Position numbers and translations under genes: made by a program. A DNA stretch of 11,915 nucleotides from Hyphomicrobiales bacterium (GTDB lineage Bacteria > Pseudomonadota > Alphaproteobacteria > Rhizobiales > HXMU1428-3): positions 1 through 11,915 of the forward strand of contig JAJFHW010000251.1 of NCBI GenBank assembly GCA_021775385.1. Reading direction: 5' to 3'. A model generated the notes under the pieces. It was not told the DNA's origin and did no database searches. It saw only the letters and a program-made list of their open reading frames with translations. Below are positions 2-11,690 of this stretch, in pieces. Numbering within the stretch: position 1 is the first letter of the stretch; each line of letters opens with the position of its first letter.

Positions 2-1459
2 CTCTGGTCTATCGGGTTTGGATATGGCTTTTGGTGGAGCCTTATTGCAGGCGAAGAAGCCACGCGGACCAGTCTTTCTGGATTACAAGAAGATGCAAGA
101 GATGCTGGAGGTGCCGTGGCTGCCCGGCTTGATGCAGTTAAAATTCAACTTGATAATGTTGTGAGCTGGTCTGAGACGCAAATGGCGCGTGAAGAAAGCA
201 GTGGTGGAAGTTGTGGCCGTGCCTCTGGAGCTGGCCGAGGACCTTTATATAATGCGCGGCGGAGTGTTCGTGACCAGGTTGCATCGCTCAGAGATGGTAT
301 TTCAACATCGTGGCTTGCGCCAGTTAAAGTAGATTTAGAGAAATTGAGATTAAGTGTTGCTCGTATTGAAGGGGCAACAGTTGCTGAGCGTCAAAAGATT
401 TTTGAGATAACTGCGTCTGGCGTGCGGGGGAATGCTAAAAATATTGCGGCACGCTCGAATGAACTTGGTAAGACAACGGCGACTGAAATGCTTGCTTTGG
501 CTGAGACAGTTTCTGTTTCGCCGGGGGCACCAGGATTTTCTTGTTATGATCCGACGCTGGCACAACGTTTACGGCAAGCAGCAGCTCAAGCTGGCGAACC
601 TGCTGTATTAAATTTACGAGAAGCTTCGTTTAATGAGGGGCCTGCTGGAGTTGCCAATGCAGTGAAGCGGCTCTGGGCTAATATGGGCTCTTATTTTACC
701 TCCCTTGTTTCTTATATTGCTTCTGGCGGTGAGGTGGCATCTGGGAAAACAGATGGTGGATCGAAAATTACTGGCCGGGATTTAATTGCGCTTTTGGCGA
801 CACTTGGGGTTGATTTGGGTCTGTTTGCTTTGACGGCTTTGAACCCGCCATCTGCTGGGCCATTGCGCCGAGATGGGTTGGAACGTAATCAAGCGCGGTT
901 GCATTTACCAAATATGACGGTGATTAGACAATTAACAGCAGCAATAGAAACCGCGATTTCACGAGCACCAGGGGCTGACATTGAATGGGTGCGAAAACAT
1001 CTAGTTCATCATGGGGGGACTTCGTTCTTTATAATCCCCAATCTCTATAGTGTAGCAAAAGATAATAAAGACGAAGAATTAAGGGCGCTTGCAATTAATC
1101 AATTGACAGGAGTGCTTGATGATTTGGAGTTGATACGGGTTCTCACGCCTCGTGAGCTTAGAAGAGCGCGGCGTGAAGAGGCGAGGGAGAGCCGGAGTAG
1201 TGTTCAGGAAAATGAACATATACGTAATCATGGTTTGCTCTCTAAAGGGCGACGGATGCTTGATATTGTGGGTTGGAGTATCGATGCTCAACGAGACTTA
1301 GAAGTTTTCCATCTTGTTGATACAGAAGGTTTAACACCGTTGCTTGCTGTTTTGAATGAAGCCAGCCGGGCAGGTGAGGCAAATGGGGATGATTCTGAAA
1401 AGGTTGAGGTTTCTGATATTGCTTCAGAAACGACAACTGATCCTCAATCAAAAGTTTAG
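2..1459 (+). CDS. Partial membrane protein with periplasmic coiled-coil domain, paralogue of the 2856-5687 gene (5' end outside window)
   Basis: I do not recognise a named family. The frame is open from base 2, so the GTG at 116 is probably not the start and the true start lies left of the window. About 485 codons are visible. The first residues (IGFGYGFWW) look like the end of a membrane helix. They are followed by a helical, charged, probably periplasmic segment with EEATR, a Cys codon at 212-214 in a Ser/Gly-rich patch, and a second Cys (FSCYDP) at 542-544. A second membrane helix lies at about 776-850 (RDLIALLATLGVDLGLFAL). A soluble, presumably cytoplasmic domain follows, with HHGGTSFFIIPN at about 1007-1042. 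Each landmark has a counterpart, in the same order, in the 943-residue protein on the other strand, so the two are paralogues. This copy ends soon after the C-terminal domain and lacks the long low-complexity tail. It converges on the 1534-1914 gene across a shared terminator. Function unknown; a role in an envelope-spanning complex is inference. Confidence 0.8.
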   Translation, partial: LWSIGFGYGFWWSLIAGEEATRTSLSGLQEDARDAGGAVAARLDAVKIQLDNVVSWSETQMAREESSGGSCGRASGAGRGPLYNARRSVRDQVASLRDGISTSWLAPVKVDLEKLRLSVARIEGATVAERQKIFEITASGVRGNAKNIAARSNELGKTTATEMLALAETVSVSPGAPGFSCYDPTLAQRLRQAAAQAGEPAVLNLREASFNEGPAGVANAVKRLWANMGSYFTSLVSYIASGGEVASGKTDGGSKITGRDLIALLATLGVDLGLFALTALNPPSAGPLRRDGLERNQARLHLPNMTVIRQLTAAIETAISRAPGADIEWVRKHLVHHGGTSFFIIPNLYSVAKDNKDEELRALAINQLTGVLDDLELIRVLTPRELRRARREEARESRSSVQENEHIRNHGLLSKGRRMLDIVGWSIDAQRDLEVFHLVDTEGLTPLLAVLNEASRAGEANGDDSEKVEVSDIASETTTDPQSKV

Positions 1460-1476
1460 TTTGAAATTATAAAAAG

Positions 1477-1516
1477 AAAAAGGGCCGCTAAAATTTTTTT
1501 AGTGGCCCTTTTTTTT
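1477..1516. terminator. Strong bidirectional intrinsic terminator
   Basis: The left arm 1477-1493 (AAAAAGGGCCGCTAAAA) pairs with 1497-1513 over 17 positions, including one G-T wobble, around a 3-base loop. An 8-T run (1509-1516) follows on the plus strand, and the A-rich stretch 1471-1481 gives a U-rich tail to minus-strand transcripts. It lies between the convergent stops at 1459 and 1534, so it can end both transcripts. Confidence 0.9.
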
Positions 1517-1533
1517 ATAATTTTATTCAAACG

Positions 1534-1914
1534 CTAATTTGTTTCTGATTTGCTATCTTCTTTACTTACTTCAATTTTTTTATGTGCGCATGGTATGGCC
1601 GTTAAGGTGCAGATATAATATTGGGAACTACCTGGTTTTGTGCATTTGATAGATTTGCTTTTGGCGTTGTGCCATTGGGCGAAATCTTCATTAAACTTTT
1701 TTTTCACCTGTTCTGACCATTGGATAATGGTGCGCATATTAGCAATTGATTCAAGAATATTTGGAAAGCCGGTCAGTTTTATTTTATCTTTACAAACTAA
1801 TTCTGTTTCGATTGTTTTTTCAGATTGTGTTTCCGCACTTGCTTGAGCAGAAAATAATCCAAATGAGAAAATTAGTAGTAATGATGCAAATTTTTTCAAA
1901 CTTTTCATCTTCAT
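1534..1914 (-). CDS. Small secreted protein with four cysteines
   Basis: 126 residues, probably exported to the periplasm by Sec. The N-terminus has basic residues (KMKSLKK), a hydrophobic core (about 9-22) and a good signal-peptidase I site, ASA before Glu28. The mature part of about 99 residues has cysteines at 41, 91, 102 and 109, and the motif W-x3-V...F-x2-D-FAQW-x2-A...C...Y-x-C...PC. From memory this resembles a W/Cys-rich module seen in small alphaproteobacterial exported proteins, but I cannot name a family. Start choice: the AGG of a weak SD (AGGTAA) is only 3 bases from the annotated ATG but 9 bases from the ATG two codons downstream (Met3, codon 1906-1908), so Met3 may be the real start. 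It lies 172 bases downstream of the 211-residue gene on the same strand, and its stop faces the bidirectional terminator. A periplasmic partner role for the neighbouring membrane proteins is inference only. Confidence 0.78.
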   Translation of the reverse strand: MKMKSLKKFASLLLIFSFGLFSAQASAETQSEKTIETELVCKDKIKLTGFPNILESIANMRTIIQWSEQVKKKFNEDFAQWHNAKSKSIKCTKPGSSQYYICTLTAIPCAHKKIEVSKEDSKSETN

Positions 1915-2086
1915 TTACCTAAAACGCAAGACTATGGCAGGCAAAATTGTAAAACTAAATTGGCAATTTTAACGCAGCCATATTTAATGGATTATGTTGT
2001 TTAATCCACTCTGCCATCAAACCTTTAATAAAAGAATATGGATTTAAAATATGATCTTTAAATGTTATTTAAGTTATGAATTTTGT

Positions 2087-2722
2087 TTAATGGCGTGTAA
2101 ATTCTGAGGCTAGGAAGTGAACATCATTTTGCGAAAATGAGCCTGATTTTGAGTGGGCACCTAGAAATGATTGTTCATTTGTTTGTTTCGCGCGCTTGAT
2201 ATGAACCTGAGGAATTTTGTCACAGATTTGCCATAAGGCATTAAATGCGCGCTCGCCTCTAATTGCAGCCTGTTTGCACTCTTTTTCAAAAATGTAGAAG
2301 CCGAACCGTGAACTAACTTCGCGGCGCATTGATTCGCCTGACCAGCTACATTGATTGGTTAGTGTTAATTGTTCGTGAGCATCTACCAAGTTTTGTCGAT
2401 TGCCCCAGCGGATATTTTTTTCTGGATTTAAACCACAAGGTGATGTTTCAGGGTCTAACCACTCACAGAGATGCTCTGTTGGTGTGATTTGAGCAAAGAT
2501 GATTTTTATCTCAACATTGGCAAGTGCAAATTTTTCACGGTATTGAATGCATGCTTTTGCAATGTTAGCTTCTGGTGAGCGAGCAATTAAAGTTAAGCTC
2601 TTATCAAGAGAGGCATCAGAAGAAATTTTTTGTATAAAATGATCTAAAATATCAAAGAAGTAGTTTAACTCAGCAGTATCGTCTGTCGCTGTTGGGCTGC
2701 TGATTTCTTTGATAAGTCCCAT
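2087..2722 (-). CDS. Unrecognised 211-residue soluble protein with conserved-looking W/G/DAHEQL motifs
   Basis: I cannot assign a family with confidence. There is no signal peptide or membrane segment, so it is probably cytoplasmic. The middle (about residues 42-80) alternates hydrophobic strands and a helix, like an alpha/beta fold. It is followed by a motif-like stretch: IRWGNRQNLVDAHEQL (104-119), CSWSGESMRR (125-134), then a C-terminal helical part with A-x-RGERAFNALW (about 153-164). The density of W, R, D, H and E there suggests a conserved binding or catalytic surface. I have a vague memory of DAHEQL-containing hypothetical proteins in alphaproteobacteria, which is not evidence of function. 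The start is supported by an SD (AGAAGGA, minus strand, about 2734-2739) some 10 bases upstream of the ATG. It lies 133 bases downstream of the 943-residue gene on the same strand, with no clear terminator between, so co-transcription is plausible. Confidence 0.75.
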   Translation of the reverse strand: MGLIKEISSPTATDDTAELNYFFDILDHFIQKISSDASLDKSLTLIARSPEANIAKACIQYREKFALANVEIKIIFAQITPTEHLCEWLDPETSPCGLNPEKNIRWGNRQNLVDAHEQLTLTNQCSWSGESMRREVSSRFGFYIFEKECKQAAIRGERAFNALWQICDKIPQVHIKRAKQTNEQSFLGAHSKSGSFSQNDVHFLASEFTRH

Positions 2723-2855
2723 TTTTTATTTTTCCTTCTTTTCTGGATATTGGCAGCATGTATTGGCTTTGCCATCTGTTGAAATTCACAATAACAATAT
2801 GGGGGTTAATGAATGATTGCCGTGTGAACTAAAAGTGATCAATTTTTAAAAAAAA

Positions 2856-5687
2856 TTAGACTTCTTTTTCTGTACCCTGTTTTTTATCCTTTTTGTCATC
2901 TGGTTCTGTTGTTGATTTTGTATCTTTTGCAAACCAGTCAGTTATTTTTCCAACAGCAATGTGGGCTAATTCAGGCTCTTCTTCGACCGTTTTGGGGTTT
3001 GTAGTCTTTTCTGCGTCATTTTCACTTTCCGTATTTTGGGAAGTTGATAGGTTATCTTGTAAGGCTTCTAGCTTTTTTGAGATCTGTTCTGCAGGTGGTA
3101 AATTTTCTTGTTCTTGCGTTTTACCAGTTGTTTGAACATTTTCAGTAGCTTCTTTGGCTTTTGGTTGTTCTGTTTTTTGAACTGGTGCCTTAGTGTTCTC
3201 GTCTTGTAATAGTGAGATTATGTTTGCACTGTCTGCTAGATCTTTTGTGATAGGCCCTTCTTTAGTTTGATTCTCTGTTGTTTCTTTTGTCTTCTGAGCC
3301 AATTCGTTATTTTGATTCTGAAACTCTTGCTGTAGTTCTTCTTTCTTTAAGTCATCGTATTTAAGGCTTTGGCTTTGCTGTTTCATTTCTTCGGTGATGA
3401 GAGGGGGCTGATTATTTGCAACAGCTTGCTGTTTTGCTCTATCCATTGGTTTGATACCTATTGGATTGTAGGAGGGTTGTTTGTTTGCAAAAGACTGATT
3501 TGCTATCGCTGGATTTTCTTGAGTTTCCTTTTGAATAGGTTGGCCAGCTCTCATGTTTGATTGAGGTGTTCTATTTGACGTGTGTAATGGTGGCTTTTGA
3601 GGCGTTTTTTGTGGTGTTCTTTGGTTTGTTTTGTGGATTTGTCCGCCTTGTGAGGGGGGAATATGTTGTCCATTATAAGATGTTCCCTGCTGTACTGGGT
3701 TTTGTCTATTATTATGGAATGCTGTGTTCTGAAATGTTGCGGGGGCAATGACATTGTTATGAGCCTCATGAGATTGAGGTTGGCCCTTTTCGCCAACTTT
3801 TCTCAGCATACGCGGTAATTCCATTACAGATTCATCTTGCTGCCCCTCTATGTAAGAGTGAGTGTTTACAATTGTTTGATCTTTAAGGTTTTGACCATTT
3901 TCGTCAAAGAGGCTTGTTTCATCAAAGAGGCTGGCGAAATTAGCTGACTTTTCATCTTTCAATGATCCGACTTTTTGCTCAGCTTCTGGGGTGTATTTTT
4001 CTAAGGTGCGTTGGTTCGCATTTGCGATTGCAACATCTTTGGCTGCTCCCATCACAGCATCAAGTACGATGTTGGACCAGGCACCATCTCTGAATTTATA
4101 AAGACGGAAGGCGCGATGCTCGGAAAATGAACTGCCCATCTTTTTTAATTTGCTTCTGATGATGAAGGTTGGTGGAATGATGGCTCTATCTACGATGCCA
4201 CGTCCTTCAAGGCTGACAAACAGGTTGGCCAAATATTGCGCCTGTATATCATTGGAAGCTAGGGGAATAGCGACATAATAATGACCGCCCCAATCAAATA
4301 CGACATGCTGGAAGAGGCTGAATTCTTCTCTGATGCCAGCAAAGTGTGTGGCATGGAAACTTGATAGAATGCCGCTGATTGGGCCGTCTCTGGCTTCTTT
4401 CATTACTGGGACCAAAGATTTTAAGCGATCCATTGGGCGATTGATAGAGACCAACAATAGACAAAAATCGACAAAAACAGCGATGGCGAGAGGAATGTAA
4501 TCTCTGTCGTTTAAACCAGCTTGCACATTTGTAAGCTGTAAGGGTGGTTTTTTACCATTGACAGAGCGAACGGCTTTTTGGCGAGCTTCTCTGATTTCGT
4601 CTTCGCTTGGTGGCATTTTTAGAACCATCAGGCCTTTTAATGTTGAGGCCAGGCGTCGGAAAGCTTCTATAGTTGCTTCTGATCCTTCAACTGCTGCGAT
4701 TTTGGGTTTCCCTAGAAGAGGTAATTGGTCAAAGGCTTGAACAACGCCTCGTAGTGCAGATTGAAGTTGATTGTCTGGGCACTTAAACGTTCCGCCTTTG
4801 TCATCAGGGAATTGGGTTTTAGTTGAGCGTTCAGCCAAACTGTTACGAATAGATTTTAGCTGTGGGTCAGTTCTGAAGGAATTAAACCGAGTGATTGTCA
4901 GGTCTAATCTTTGGTTCAAACTTTTCATAAAGGCATTTCTTGTGCCGGTTGCTGGGTCTACCGTTGAGGGGTGACGGGACGCAATTTTGGCCATATCGCC
5001 ATTAAGTTGTTTGATTTCAGTGGCAACCGTTTGAGCTCGCCTTGTGACGAAGTCGCCAGCAAATGAGAAACTTTTTGCATCATTGTCTCTTAAGCGTCGT
5101 CTTGGTCCATCGCCTGGGCGAGAATTTGGGCAGCTATTGCCTTTTGTGCGCTCTTCATTTGCTTTTTGAAGCGAGAGTGCTGTGAGGGTTGTAAGAGTGC
5201 TTTCTAATTGTTCTAACCTTGATTGCCCAGCTTGCAGTGAGCCTTGAACTTGTCCTACTGCACTTTCAGCTGATCTTGTTGCTTCAGAACGGCTTTCTAA
5301 AAACTTCCAATAGAAGCCAAAGCCGAAGCCGATAGAAATAAGAGTTAGAAATAAATAACCGAAAATGAAGACGGTTCTTAATAACCAATTTAAGGGTGCA
5401 AAAAGTTGATCAAGGATATAGACGATCATCAGCATGAGCATAGCAACGGCAAAACCGATTGCTAATTTATAGGTGACACCGATATCACCTGAATTGGCTG
5501 TGATGAGTTCTAAGAGACCAGAATAAGTTGAGACCCATGACAGTGTGCCAAGGCCAATAATAAGGAGCATTTTTTTGATATCGATTGGGGTCTTTTGTTC
5601 ATCTACATCTTTGAACATTCGCTCCAGTTCACTGGTGCTTGAGGAAAGTCGTTGATAAACACCGGTGTTTTTAATCATATCACTCAT
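2856..5687 (-). CDS. Large four-helix membrane protein with periplasmic coiled-coil domain and long disordered cytoplasmic tail
   Basis: 943 residues, no family I can name. Predicted order: cytoplasmic N-terminus (1-38); membrane helices at about 39-62, 73-97 and 102-128 (ending SIGFGFGFYW); a periplasmic domain (129-396) starting with a heptad-like coiled coil (about 133-178) and carrying exactly two cysteines, C186 (NSCPNSR) and C303 (FKCPDNQ); a fourth helix at about 396-415; a cytoplasmic globular domain (about 416-560) with DWGGHYYVAIP (465-475); then a tail from about 560 to the end rich in Q, N, P, T, K and E, probably disordered. Basic residues near TM1 and after TM4 fit this topology. 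The tail contains a six-residue tandem SLFDET/SLFDEN. The truncated gene at the left edge is a paralogue sharing all landmarks except the tail. The start is supported by AAGGG about 11 bases upstream. It is probably the first gene of a minus-strand unit with the 211- and 126-residue genes. The fold plan is compatible with a mechanical or tethering envelope component; that is inference. Confidence 0.82.
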   Translation of the reverse strand: MSDMIKNTGVYQRLSSSTSELERMFKDVDEQKTPIDIKKMLLIIGLGTLSWVSTYSGLLELITANSGDIGVTYKLAIGFAVAMLMLMIVYILDQLFAPLNWLLRTVFIFGYLFLTLISIGFGFGFYWKFLESRSEATRSAESAVGQVQGSLQAGQSRLEQLESTLTTLTALSLQKANEERTKGNSCPNSRPGDGPRRRLRDNDAKSFSFAGDFVTRRAQTVATEIKQLNGDMAKIASRHPSTVDPATGTRNAFMKSLNQRLDLTITRFNSFRTDPQLKSIRNSLAERSTKTQFPDDKGGTFKCPDNQLQSALRGVVQAFDQLPLLGKPKIAAVEGSEATIEAFRRLASTLKGLMVLKMPPSEDEIREARQKAVRSVNGKKPPLQLTNVQAGLNDRDYIPLAIAVFVDFCLLLVSINRPMDRLKSLVPVMKEARDGPISGILSSFHATHFAGIREEFSLFQHVVFDWGGHYYVAIPLASNDIQAQYLANLFVSLEGRGIVDRAIIPPTFIIRSKLKKMGSSFSEHRAFRLYKFRDGAWSNIVLDAVMGAAKDVAIANANQRTLEKYTPEAEQKVGSLKDEKSANFASLFDETSLFDENGQNLKDQTIVNTHSYIEGQQDESVMELPRMLRKVGEKGQPQSHEAHNNVIAPATFQNTAFHNNRQNPVQQGTSYNGQHIPPSQGGQIHKTNQRTPQKTPQKPPLHTSNRTPQSNMRAGQPIQKETQENPAIANQSFANKQPSYNPIGIKPMDRAKQQAVANNQPPLITEEMKQQSQSLKYDDLKKEELQQEFQNQNNELAQKTKETTENQTKEGPITKDLADSANIISLLQDENTKAPVQKTEQPKAKEATENVQTTGKTQEQENLPPAEQISKKLEALQDNLSTSQNTESENDAEKTTNPKTVEEEPELAHIAVGKITDWFAKDTKSTTEPDDKKDKKQGTEKEV
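3904..3932 (-). repeat. In-gene tandem duplication encoding SLFDE-T-SLFDE
   Basis: The 11-mer TCAAAGAGGCT occurs at 3904-3914 and 3922-3932, an 18-base period that is exactly six codons. It keeps the frame and encodes two consecutive SLFDE[T/N] units (about residues 586-597) at the start of the disordered tail. It may be a short linear binding motif or a simple slippage product. Confidence 0.6.
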
Positions 5688-11225: not shown

Positions 11226-11690
11226 ATGATGGGAACTTTTGATCAAGCATGGCTTAGCGGACGTGAAACACCAAACCCACTGAAAGCCACACCACTTTAT
11301 CTTGTCGATGACATGGCTTCAGCAAAACGCCGTTTTAGCGCGATGGGTTTTGAGATGACGACATTGCAATCAGATGCTTTAGCTGGAACGCAAGTTGATG
11401 TTCATAAAGATGGCTGTGTTGGTATGAACGCTGGGCAAACGCAGATCATTCTGGTTGAAGAAACCCACGCGAAGCGGACTATGCCGCCTGAAGTTCTCCC
11501 GTCATTCAAACATGGCCCTGCTCTTTATGTTTGGGTGGATTCAGTGGATGAAACGCGCTCGAAAATTGCTGATCCGGTGATTGCAGAAATGGTGACTGGC
11601 TATGGTACCTGGGAGCTCTTTGTTGAAAGCCGCATTGGTTTGATTATTTTTGCTGAGAAGTTGAGCCAGGAAATGAAGATGGCATCTTAA
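11226..11690 (+). CDS. VOC-superfamily (glyoxalase/bleomycin-resistance-like) protein
   Basis: 154 residues, matching one pair of beta-alpha-beta-beta-beta modules. ATPLYLVDDMASAKRRFSAMGFE (about 21-43) is the typical first strand and helix (strand, D-x-A-x4-F, then GF). The rest has GMNAGQTQIILVE (about 66-78), a second module PALYVWVDSVDETRSKI (about 98-114), and ends in LFVESRIGLIIFAEK, where DPDGN-type family members have their last strands. The usual metal-ligand position in the first strand is not His or Glu; a Glu near 144 in the last strand remains. So a metal-dependent lyase or dioxygenase role is uncertain, and a binding or resistance-type VOC is possible; the substrate cannot be predicted. 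The start is well supported: AGGAG (11216-11220) is 5 bases before ATG 11226 (a second ATG follows immediately). It is divergent from leuS and flanked on both sides by stem-loop repeat clusters. Confidence 0.8.
   Translation: MMGTFDQAWLSGRETPNPLKATPLYLVDDMASAKRRFSAMGFEMTTLQSDALAGTQVDVHKDGCVGMNAGQTQIILVEETHAKRTMPPEVLPSFKHGPALYVWVDSVDETRSKIADPVIAEMVTGYGTWELFVESRIGLIIFAEKLSQEMKMAS

Follow-up and report, generated by a model that had tools for sequence, protein, structure and literature searches.

A predicted four-helix membrane protein family of Hyphomicrobiales that occurs with a divergent class A penicillin-binding protein

The window analyzed here, 11,915 nucleotides of Hyphomicrobiales DNA (JAJFHW010000251.1), is one entire contig (C170) of a metagenome-assembled genome (MAG) of 2.88 Mb that comprises 400 contigs and is 79% complete. 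It encodes two large membrane proteins, designated A and B, which enclose two small genes, C1 and C2. B lies on the plus strand and is followed on the minus strand by C2, C1, A, holA, lptE and leuS, and then by a plus-strand open reading frame (ORF) of 154 amino acids (aa). The gene coordinates in a first-pass annotation, made from the sequence alone, agree with the ORF calls. This annotation viewed A and B as paralogs within a four-gene cassette. We describe the two proteins, their partners across the order and their possible link to C5, a class A penicillin-binding protein (PBP) encoded near A in related genomes. The features of A, B and C1 are the following.

2856..5687, minus strand: protein A, 943 aa, membrane protein with four predicted transmembrane (TM) helices (ORF)
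4503..5306, minus strand: mainly helical module of A (residues about 128-395), predicted to face the periplasm, in which C186 and C303 are invariant (invariant columns, model helices, hydropathy)
4008..4436, minus strand: predicted cytoplasmic domain of A (residues about 418-560), conserved among A proteins (alignment, low-confidence model)
2859..3962, minus strand: A residues 576-943, poorly conserved tail rich in Q, K, E, T and N (consensus, composition)
2..1459, plus strand: protein B, a paralog of A, with 485 aa present out of about 617 (ORF, profiles)
2087..2722, minus strand: C1, 211 aa, predicted cytoplasmic protein with a single-lobe phospholipase D (PLD) fold (fold prediction)
2321..2377, minus strand: degenerate HKD-like motif, C1 residues 116-134 (58-sequence alignment)

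Two paralogous membrane proteins

Protein A has 1204 homologs at an E value of 0.001 or lower, 49 of the 120 listed being included in its alignment (A1), and no Pfam, PHROGs or NCBIfam family matches it over cut-off. Hydropathy and a KK pair ahead of the first helix suggest an N-in topology with four helices, and the module at residues 128-395 is predicted to lie on the periplasmic side of the membrane, where a disulfide probably forms. The Q/K/E/T/N-rich tail amounts to 368 residues that are extra relative to B. One homolog of A (P0070) carries the NCBI name 'Yip1 family protein'; the window's A has no Yip1 Pfam match.

The window holds only part of B, which has 617 aa in a relative (L026). 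The first 108 codons were found at positions 2841-3164 of another contig (C187, locus L235), at the contig edge, so the truncation is an assembly break. On that contig, two ORFs resembling a cytochrome bd pair precede the start of B, and the same pair adjoins B in relatives. Searches found 1369 homologs of B, and alignment A2 includes 41 of the 120 listed.

The proposed paralogy of A and B was examined by profile-profile alignment, the check named in advance as able to overturn it. Homology was found (98.8%; E value, 1.2e-16; 341 columns; 50 A and 42 B sequences). With the membrane and periplasmic parts alone, the comparison reaches 99.1% (E value, 1.7e-18; 345 columns), versus 2.2% for a reversed control. 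The similarity runs from TM helix 1 to TM helix 4 and keeps both cysteines in register, C186 and C303 of A corresponding to C71 and C181 of the window's B. In addition, a search with the single A sequence reaches copies of B from other genomes, with E values down to 4.6e-13. Most of the shared motifs picked out in the first-pass annotation are aligned, namely, IGFGYGFWW/IGFGFGFYW, EATR, the Cys patch, FSCYDP/FKCPDN and the late RD helix. The pairing of GGTSFFIIP with GGHYYVAIP fails, however, because the cytoplasmic C termini after the fourth helix show no relation: their score (0.3%) is no better than that of the reversed control (0.4%), and homology there was rejected. Likewise, the cytoplasmic domain of A (residues about 418-560) has no counterpart in B by profile comparison. 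Judged from these alignments, A and B are thus one predicted membrane-periplasm module on two different cytoplasmic parts. The pair are, by sequence divergence, old paralogs, in line with the suggestion that they are too diverged for a recent duplication.

Partners of protein A across the order

Gene neighborhoods were compared in 80 loci kept of 111 confirmed, drawn from Hyphomicrobium, Filomicrobium, Methyloligella, Methyloceanibacter and many MAGs. Locus counts are restricted to loci with room for the neighbor in question, which excludes 11 (C1), 17 (alpha-2-macroglobulin, A2M) and 9 (C5) of the 80. Co-occurrence was assessed in 199 mutually related genomes of the order Hyphomicrobiales, in which A and B were scored from strong matches alone (all about 1e-100 or better). 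The more telling partners of A lie outside the coordinates covered by the first-pass annotation: a class A PBP of divergent sequence, joined in certain lineages by A2M and PBP1C.

C1 directly follows A in 69 of 69 loci, with a median gap of 151 b, and is present in 33 of the 34 genomes with A; in the exception (G171), A sits at a contig end. In 42 of 71 loci, the gene immediately upstream of A is C5 (44 neighbors without the room rule). This linkage is found on both sides of the deepest split in the A tree. In the window's genus, leuS, lptE and holA lie between C5 and A.

The same association is seen at the genome level, where A occurs in 34 genomes, C1 in 40, B in 23 and C5 in 28. A is present in all 28 genomes with C5, and C5 in none of the 165 lacking A. 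Six genomes contain A but not C5: the incomplete one from which the window comes, and five from one family (f31). For B, 22 of 23 genomes also hold A, and 22 of 34 A genomes hold B. The lone B genome without A (G039) is a 770-contig assembly; its match to the A profile is its B gene, so it was not counted as an A genome. Fisher P values for these co-occurrences range from 1e-19 to 1e-29 with kinship ignored. In four genomes, C5 and A are apart, either on separate contigs, with different genes preceding A (G008, G015, G025), or about 24 kb from each other (G179). That they co-occur even when apart argues against mere hitch-hiking. In a class-wide draw of 289 genomes, A was matched in the window's own genome only. 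Within the A tree, copies from MAGs titled Devosia or Bradyrhizobiaceae (L092, L110, L114, L118) are nested among Hyphomicrobium-type copies; these titles may be wrong, or the gene may have moved.

C5 has a GT51 domain (PF00912) over cut-off, and its GT51 motifs E58-D59, G99-S100-T101 and K128..E131 are invariant in 16 sequences. For the transpeptidase part the signs are mixed: the residues SxxK, SxN and KTG are conserved (44 sequences, and 16 in a second alignment), but Pfam model PF00905 gives no match. Against the NCBIfam models for PBP1a, PBP1b and PBP1c, C5 of Hyphomicrobium facile (L087) scores at most 49.5 bits, versus cut-offs of at least 494. Synthases of the PBP1a family are over cut-off in all 25 genomes checked, 11 of which have C5. 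By these sequence criteria, C5 is a divergent, GT51-bearing class A PBP that is additional to the usual set. Upstream of C5 in H. facile lie a 390-aa gene and a 1128-aa HerA/AAA-like gene (L087:2029-6584), and ORFs of similar sizes recur in several other loci.

B and C2 show a different pattern. B adjoins A in seven genomes, all of the window's genus (its own and G002 to G007), whereas the other 15 sampled genomes that have A and B carry them on different contigs or at least 50 kb apart. No neighbor family is common to three or more B loci beyond a single genus; an ABC-F-like family lies near B in two (L035, L039). C2 is one of a multicopy family of secreted four-Cys proteins, for which a genome can have as many as 10 profile matches; close relatives of C2 are beside C1 only in the window's genus and in G009. 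The convergent four-gene block is likewise seen only in the window's genus, and a single conserved four-gene cassette was rejected. What stands of that proposal is the A-C1 pair, kept in 69 of 69 loci, and the presence of A and B in the same genomes. The co-occurrence of A and B in 22 of 199 genomes fits two subunits, as had been supposed, or two isoforms. An assembly of A, B, C1 and the 126-aa C2 protein across cytoplasm, membrane and periplasm would agree with the arrangement kept within the genus and with the A-B and A-C1 co-occurrence. However, it is hard to reconcile with the 12 of 34 A genomes without a full-length B match, the unlinked B genes elsewhere and the local distribution of C2, and we consider such a complex improbable.

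A candidate role in cell wall synthesis

Based on co-occurrence and gene order, A and C1 may well form a dedicated accessory unit for C5, with B as a second isoform, a reading that we hold tentatively and rate somewhat short of an even chance. A would cross the inner membrane four times, extending its helical module into the periplasm and carrying its cytoplasmic domain and long tail on the inner side. C1, a PLD-fold protein without the catalytic set, would dock on the cytoplasmic part of A, and together the two would place or switch on C5. The latter would act as an extra glycan polymerase and transpeptidase in one branch of Hyphomicrobiales. B would pair the module that it shares with A with a different cytoplasmic domain and is perhaps a hetero-oligomer partner. 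The shared module and its two cytoplasmic parts could also be read as those of envelope-stress receptors, in which the periplasmic module of A and B senses damage and the cytoplasmic domains signal via C1 or other proteins, with the PBP as output or client; this is unlikely in our view.

Several observations weigh against an accessory unit for C5. Five f31 genomes (G037, G113, G143, G170, G192) have A without C5, and C1 elsewhere, so C5 is not required by A everywhere. Conversely, seven genomes have C1 without A; in family f32, G171 has A and C5, and five members (G038, G080, G114, G144, G193) have C1 and neither A nor C5. Of 71 loci, 29 have no C5 immediately upstream of A. Nor was C5 found in the genome of the window, which is 79% complete, and the transpeptidase Pfam model PF00905 does not match it. 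The structure model of A is weak (pLDDT, 67; pTM, 0.44). Finally, the sampled genomes are related, and the Fisher P values thus overstate independence.

The predicted fold of C1 is that of the PLD superfamily and resembles that of Nuc, Zucchini and the pseudo-PLD protein FAM83, a pseudo-enzyme of this superfamily. In the degenerate motif, H116, E117, W127, G129 and R134 are invariant across 58 sequences, and Q118 is present in at least 90% of them (alignment A3 includes 19 of 27 for C1 plus 8 loci). An active PLD-superfamily enzyme, working on phospholipid, nucleic acid or sugar-phosphate at the membrane, would be in keeping with the fold and the invariant motif His. However, C1 lacks the HKD motif: Gln takes the place of the Lys in at least 90% of the 58 sequences, and the motif has no conserved Asp, as judged from an equivalence that was read off strands and not measured. 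In addition, none of 28 C1 members has a PLD Pfam match. Catalysis by C1 is therefore very improbable. In two f31 genomes of one genus, whose A gene is elsewhere, C1 is next to glmM, a wall-precursor synthesis gene, and in the same orientation (L206:4913-7138, L207:6360-8593).

The A2M genes provide a different candidate function. The A cluster often continues into A2M in Hyphomicrobium and Filomicrobium, and 40 of 63 loci have A2M no more than 2.5 kb downstream of A (41 without the room rule). All 36 full-length A2M copies carry the CXEQ (type I) motif, and PBP1C, with its model over cut-off, is next after A2M in H. facile, the sole locus scanned. Both marks of a type I A2M operon, CXEQ and an adjacent PBP1C, are thus found among the neighbors of A. 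PMC4498604 describes this pairing for the yfhM-pbpC operon. The same two genes and CXEQ lie downstream of A in many Hyphomicrobiaceae, but here A, C1 and C5 are added and the linkage is not ancestral to A. A and C1 could serve A2M-PBP1C in envelope defense or repair, with A sensing the macroglobulin or anchoring it, as MagB anchors MagD in Pseudomonas. The Mag complex (MagABCDEF) is similar in that a membrane anchor is encoded near the macroglobulin; it differs in that the macroglobulin here is of the CXEQ type and MagB is described with one TM helix (PMC5764988). On contig C355 (L234), the window's genome encodes a CXEQ A2M and, after it, a 743-aa ORF that matches class A PBPs weakly and is presumably PBP1C.

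Nevertheless, A2M is present in 155 of the 199 genomes, most of them without A, and in two genomes of the window's genus (G002, G004) it is on a different contig with different neighbors. On the A tree, its linkage requires nine changes, at least five forced by supported branches, and is missing from the branch that holds the window and Methyloligella; this was a quick tree with one very long row (L093) and no A2M label for 16 of 80 rows. A2M as the ancestral partner of A was accordingly rejected, and service to A2M-PBP1C is an improbable role for A and C1.

As an accessory factor of C5, A would be comparable to LpoA/LpoB, MacP and CozE in being the dedicated partner of one class A PBP. A precedent is MacP, which serves a class A PBP as a cofactor in the membrane (for MacP and Lpo, see PMC10746261). 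A differs from these proteins in its four predicted TM helices, large periplasmic module and cytoplasmic PLD-fold partner. No sequence link of A to LpoA/LpoB, MacP or CozE was found, and its function is one that we infer. No literature on the families described here was recognized in the searches made; since the families are nameless, this is weak evidence of absence.

The order is described as being without MreB, and polar growth of Agrobacterium as relying on PBP1a (PMC10259793, PMC8546619). Agrobacterium PBP1a thus offers a parallel of a class A PBP in an order described as MreB-less, although C5 is additional, far more divergent and found here only with A. The proposed accessory unit bears on how wall growth is directed in Hyphomicrobiales, which are described as having neither MreB nor its elongation complex. 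A synthase that occurs, among the genomes sampled, only together with two unnamed families gives a definite gene set for study. If the proposal is true, a four-TM partner and a PLD-fold adaptor would be added to the few cofactors listed for class A PBPs. A wider version, in which a private class A PBP, a four-TM scaffold (isoforms A and B) and a cytoplasmic pseudo-phospholipase adaptor make up an unnamed wall machine, possibly for polar or hyphal growth in the branch that includes budding, MreB-less bacteria, is doubtful.

Remaining genes of the window

The other minus-strand genes of the window are the following.

1534..1914, minus strand: C2, a small secreted protein of 126 aa in which four Cys (41, 91, 102 and 109) are invariant (8-sequence alignment)
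minus strand: lptE (PF04390 match)
minus strand: leuS (recognized by eye)

The gene between A and lptE has no family over cut-off, and we take it to be holA from its gene context. Past leuS, the 154-aa ORF (11226-11690, plus strand) has no Pfam match, but several genomes of the genus retain it.
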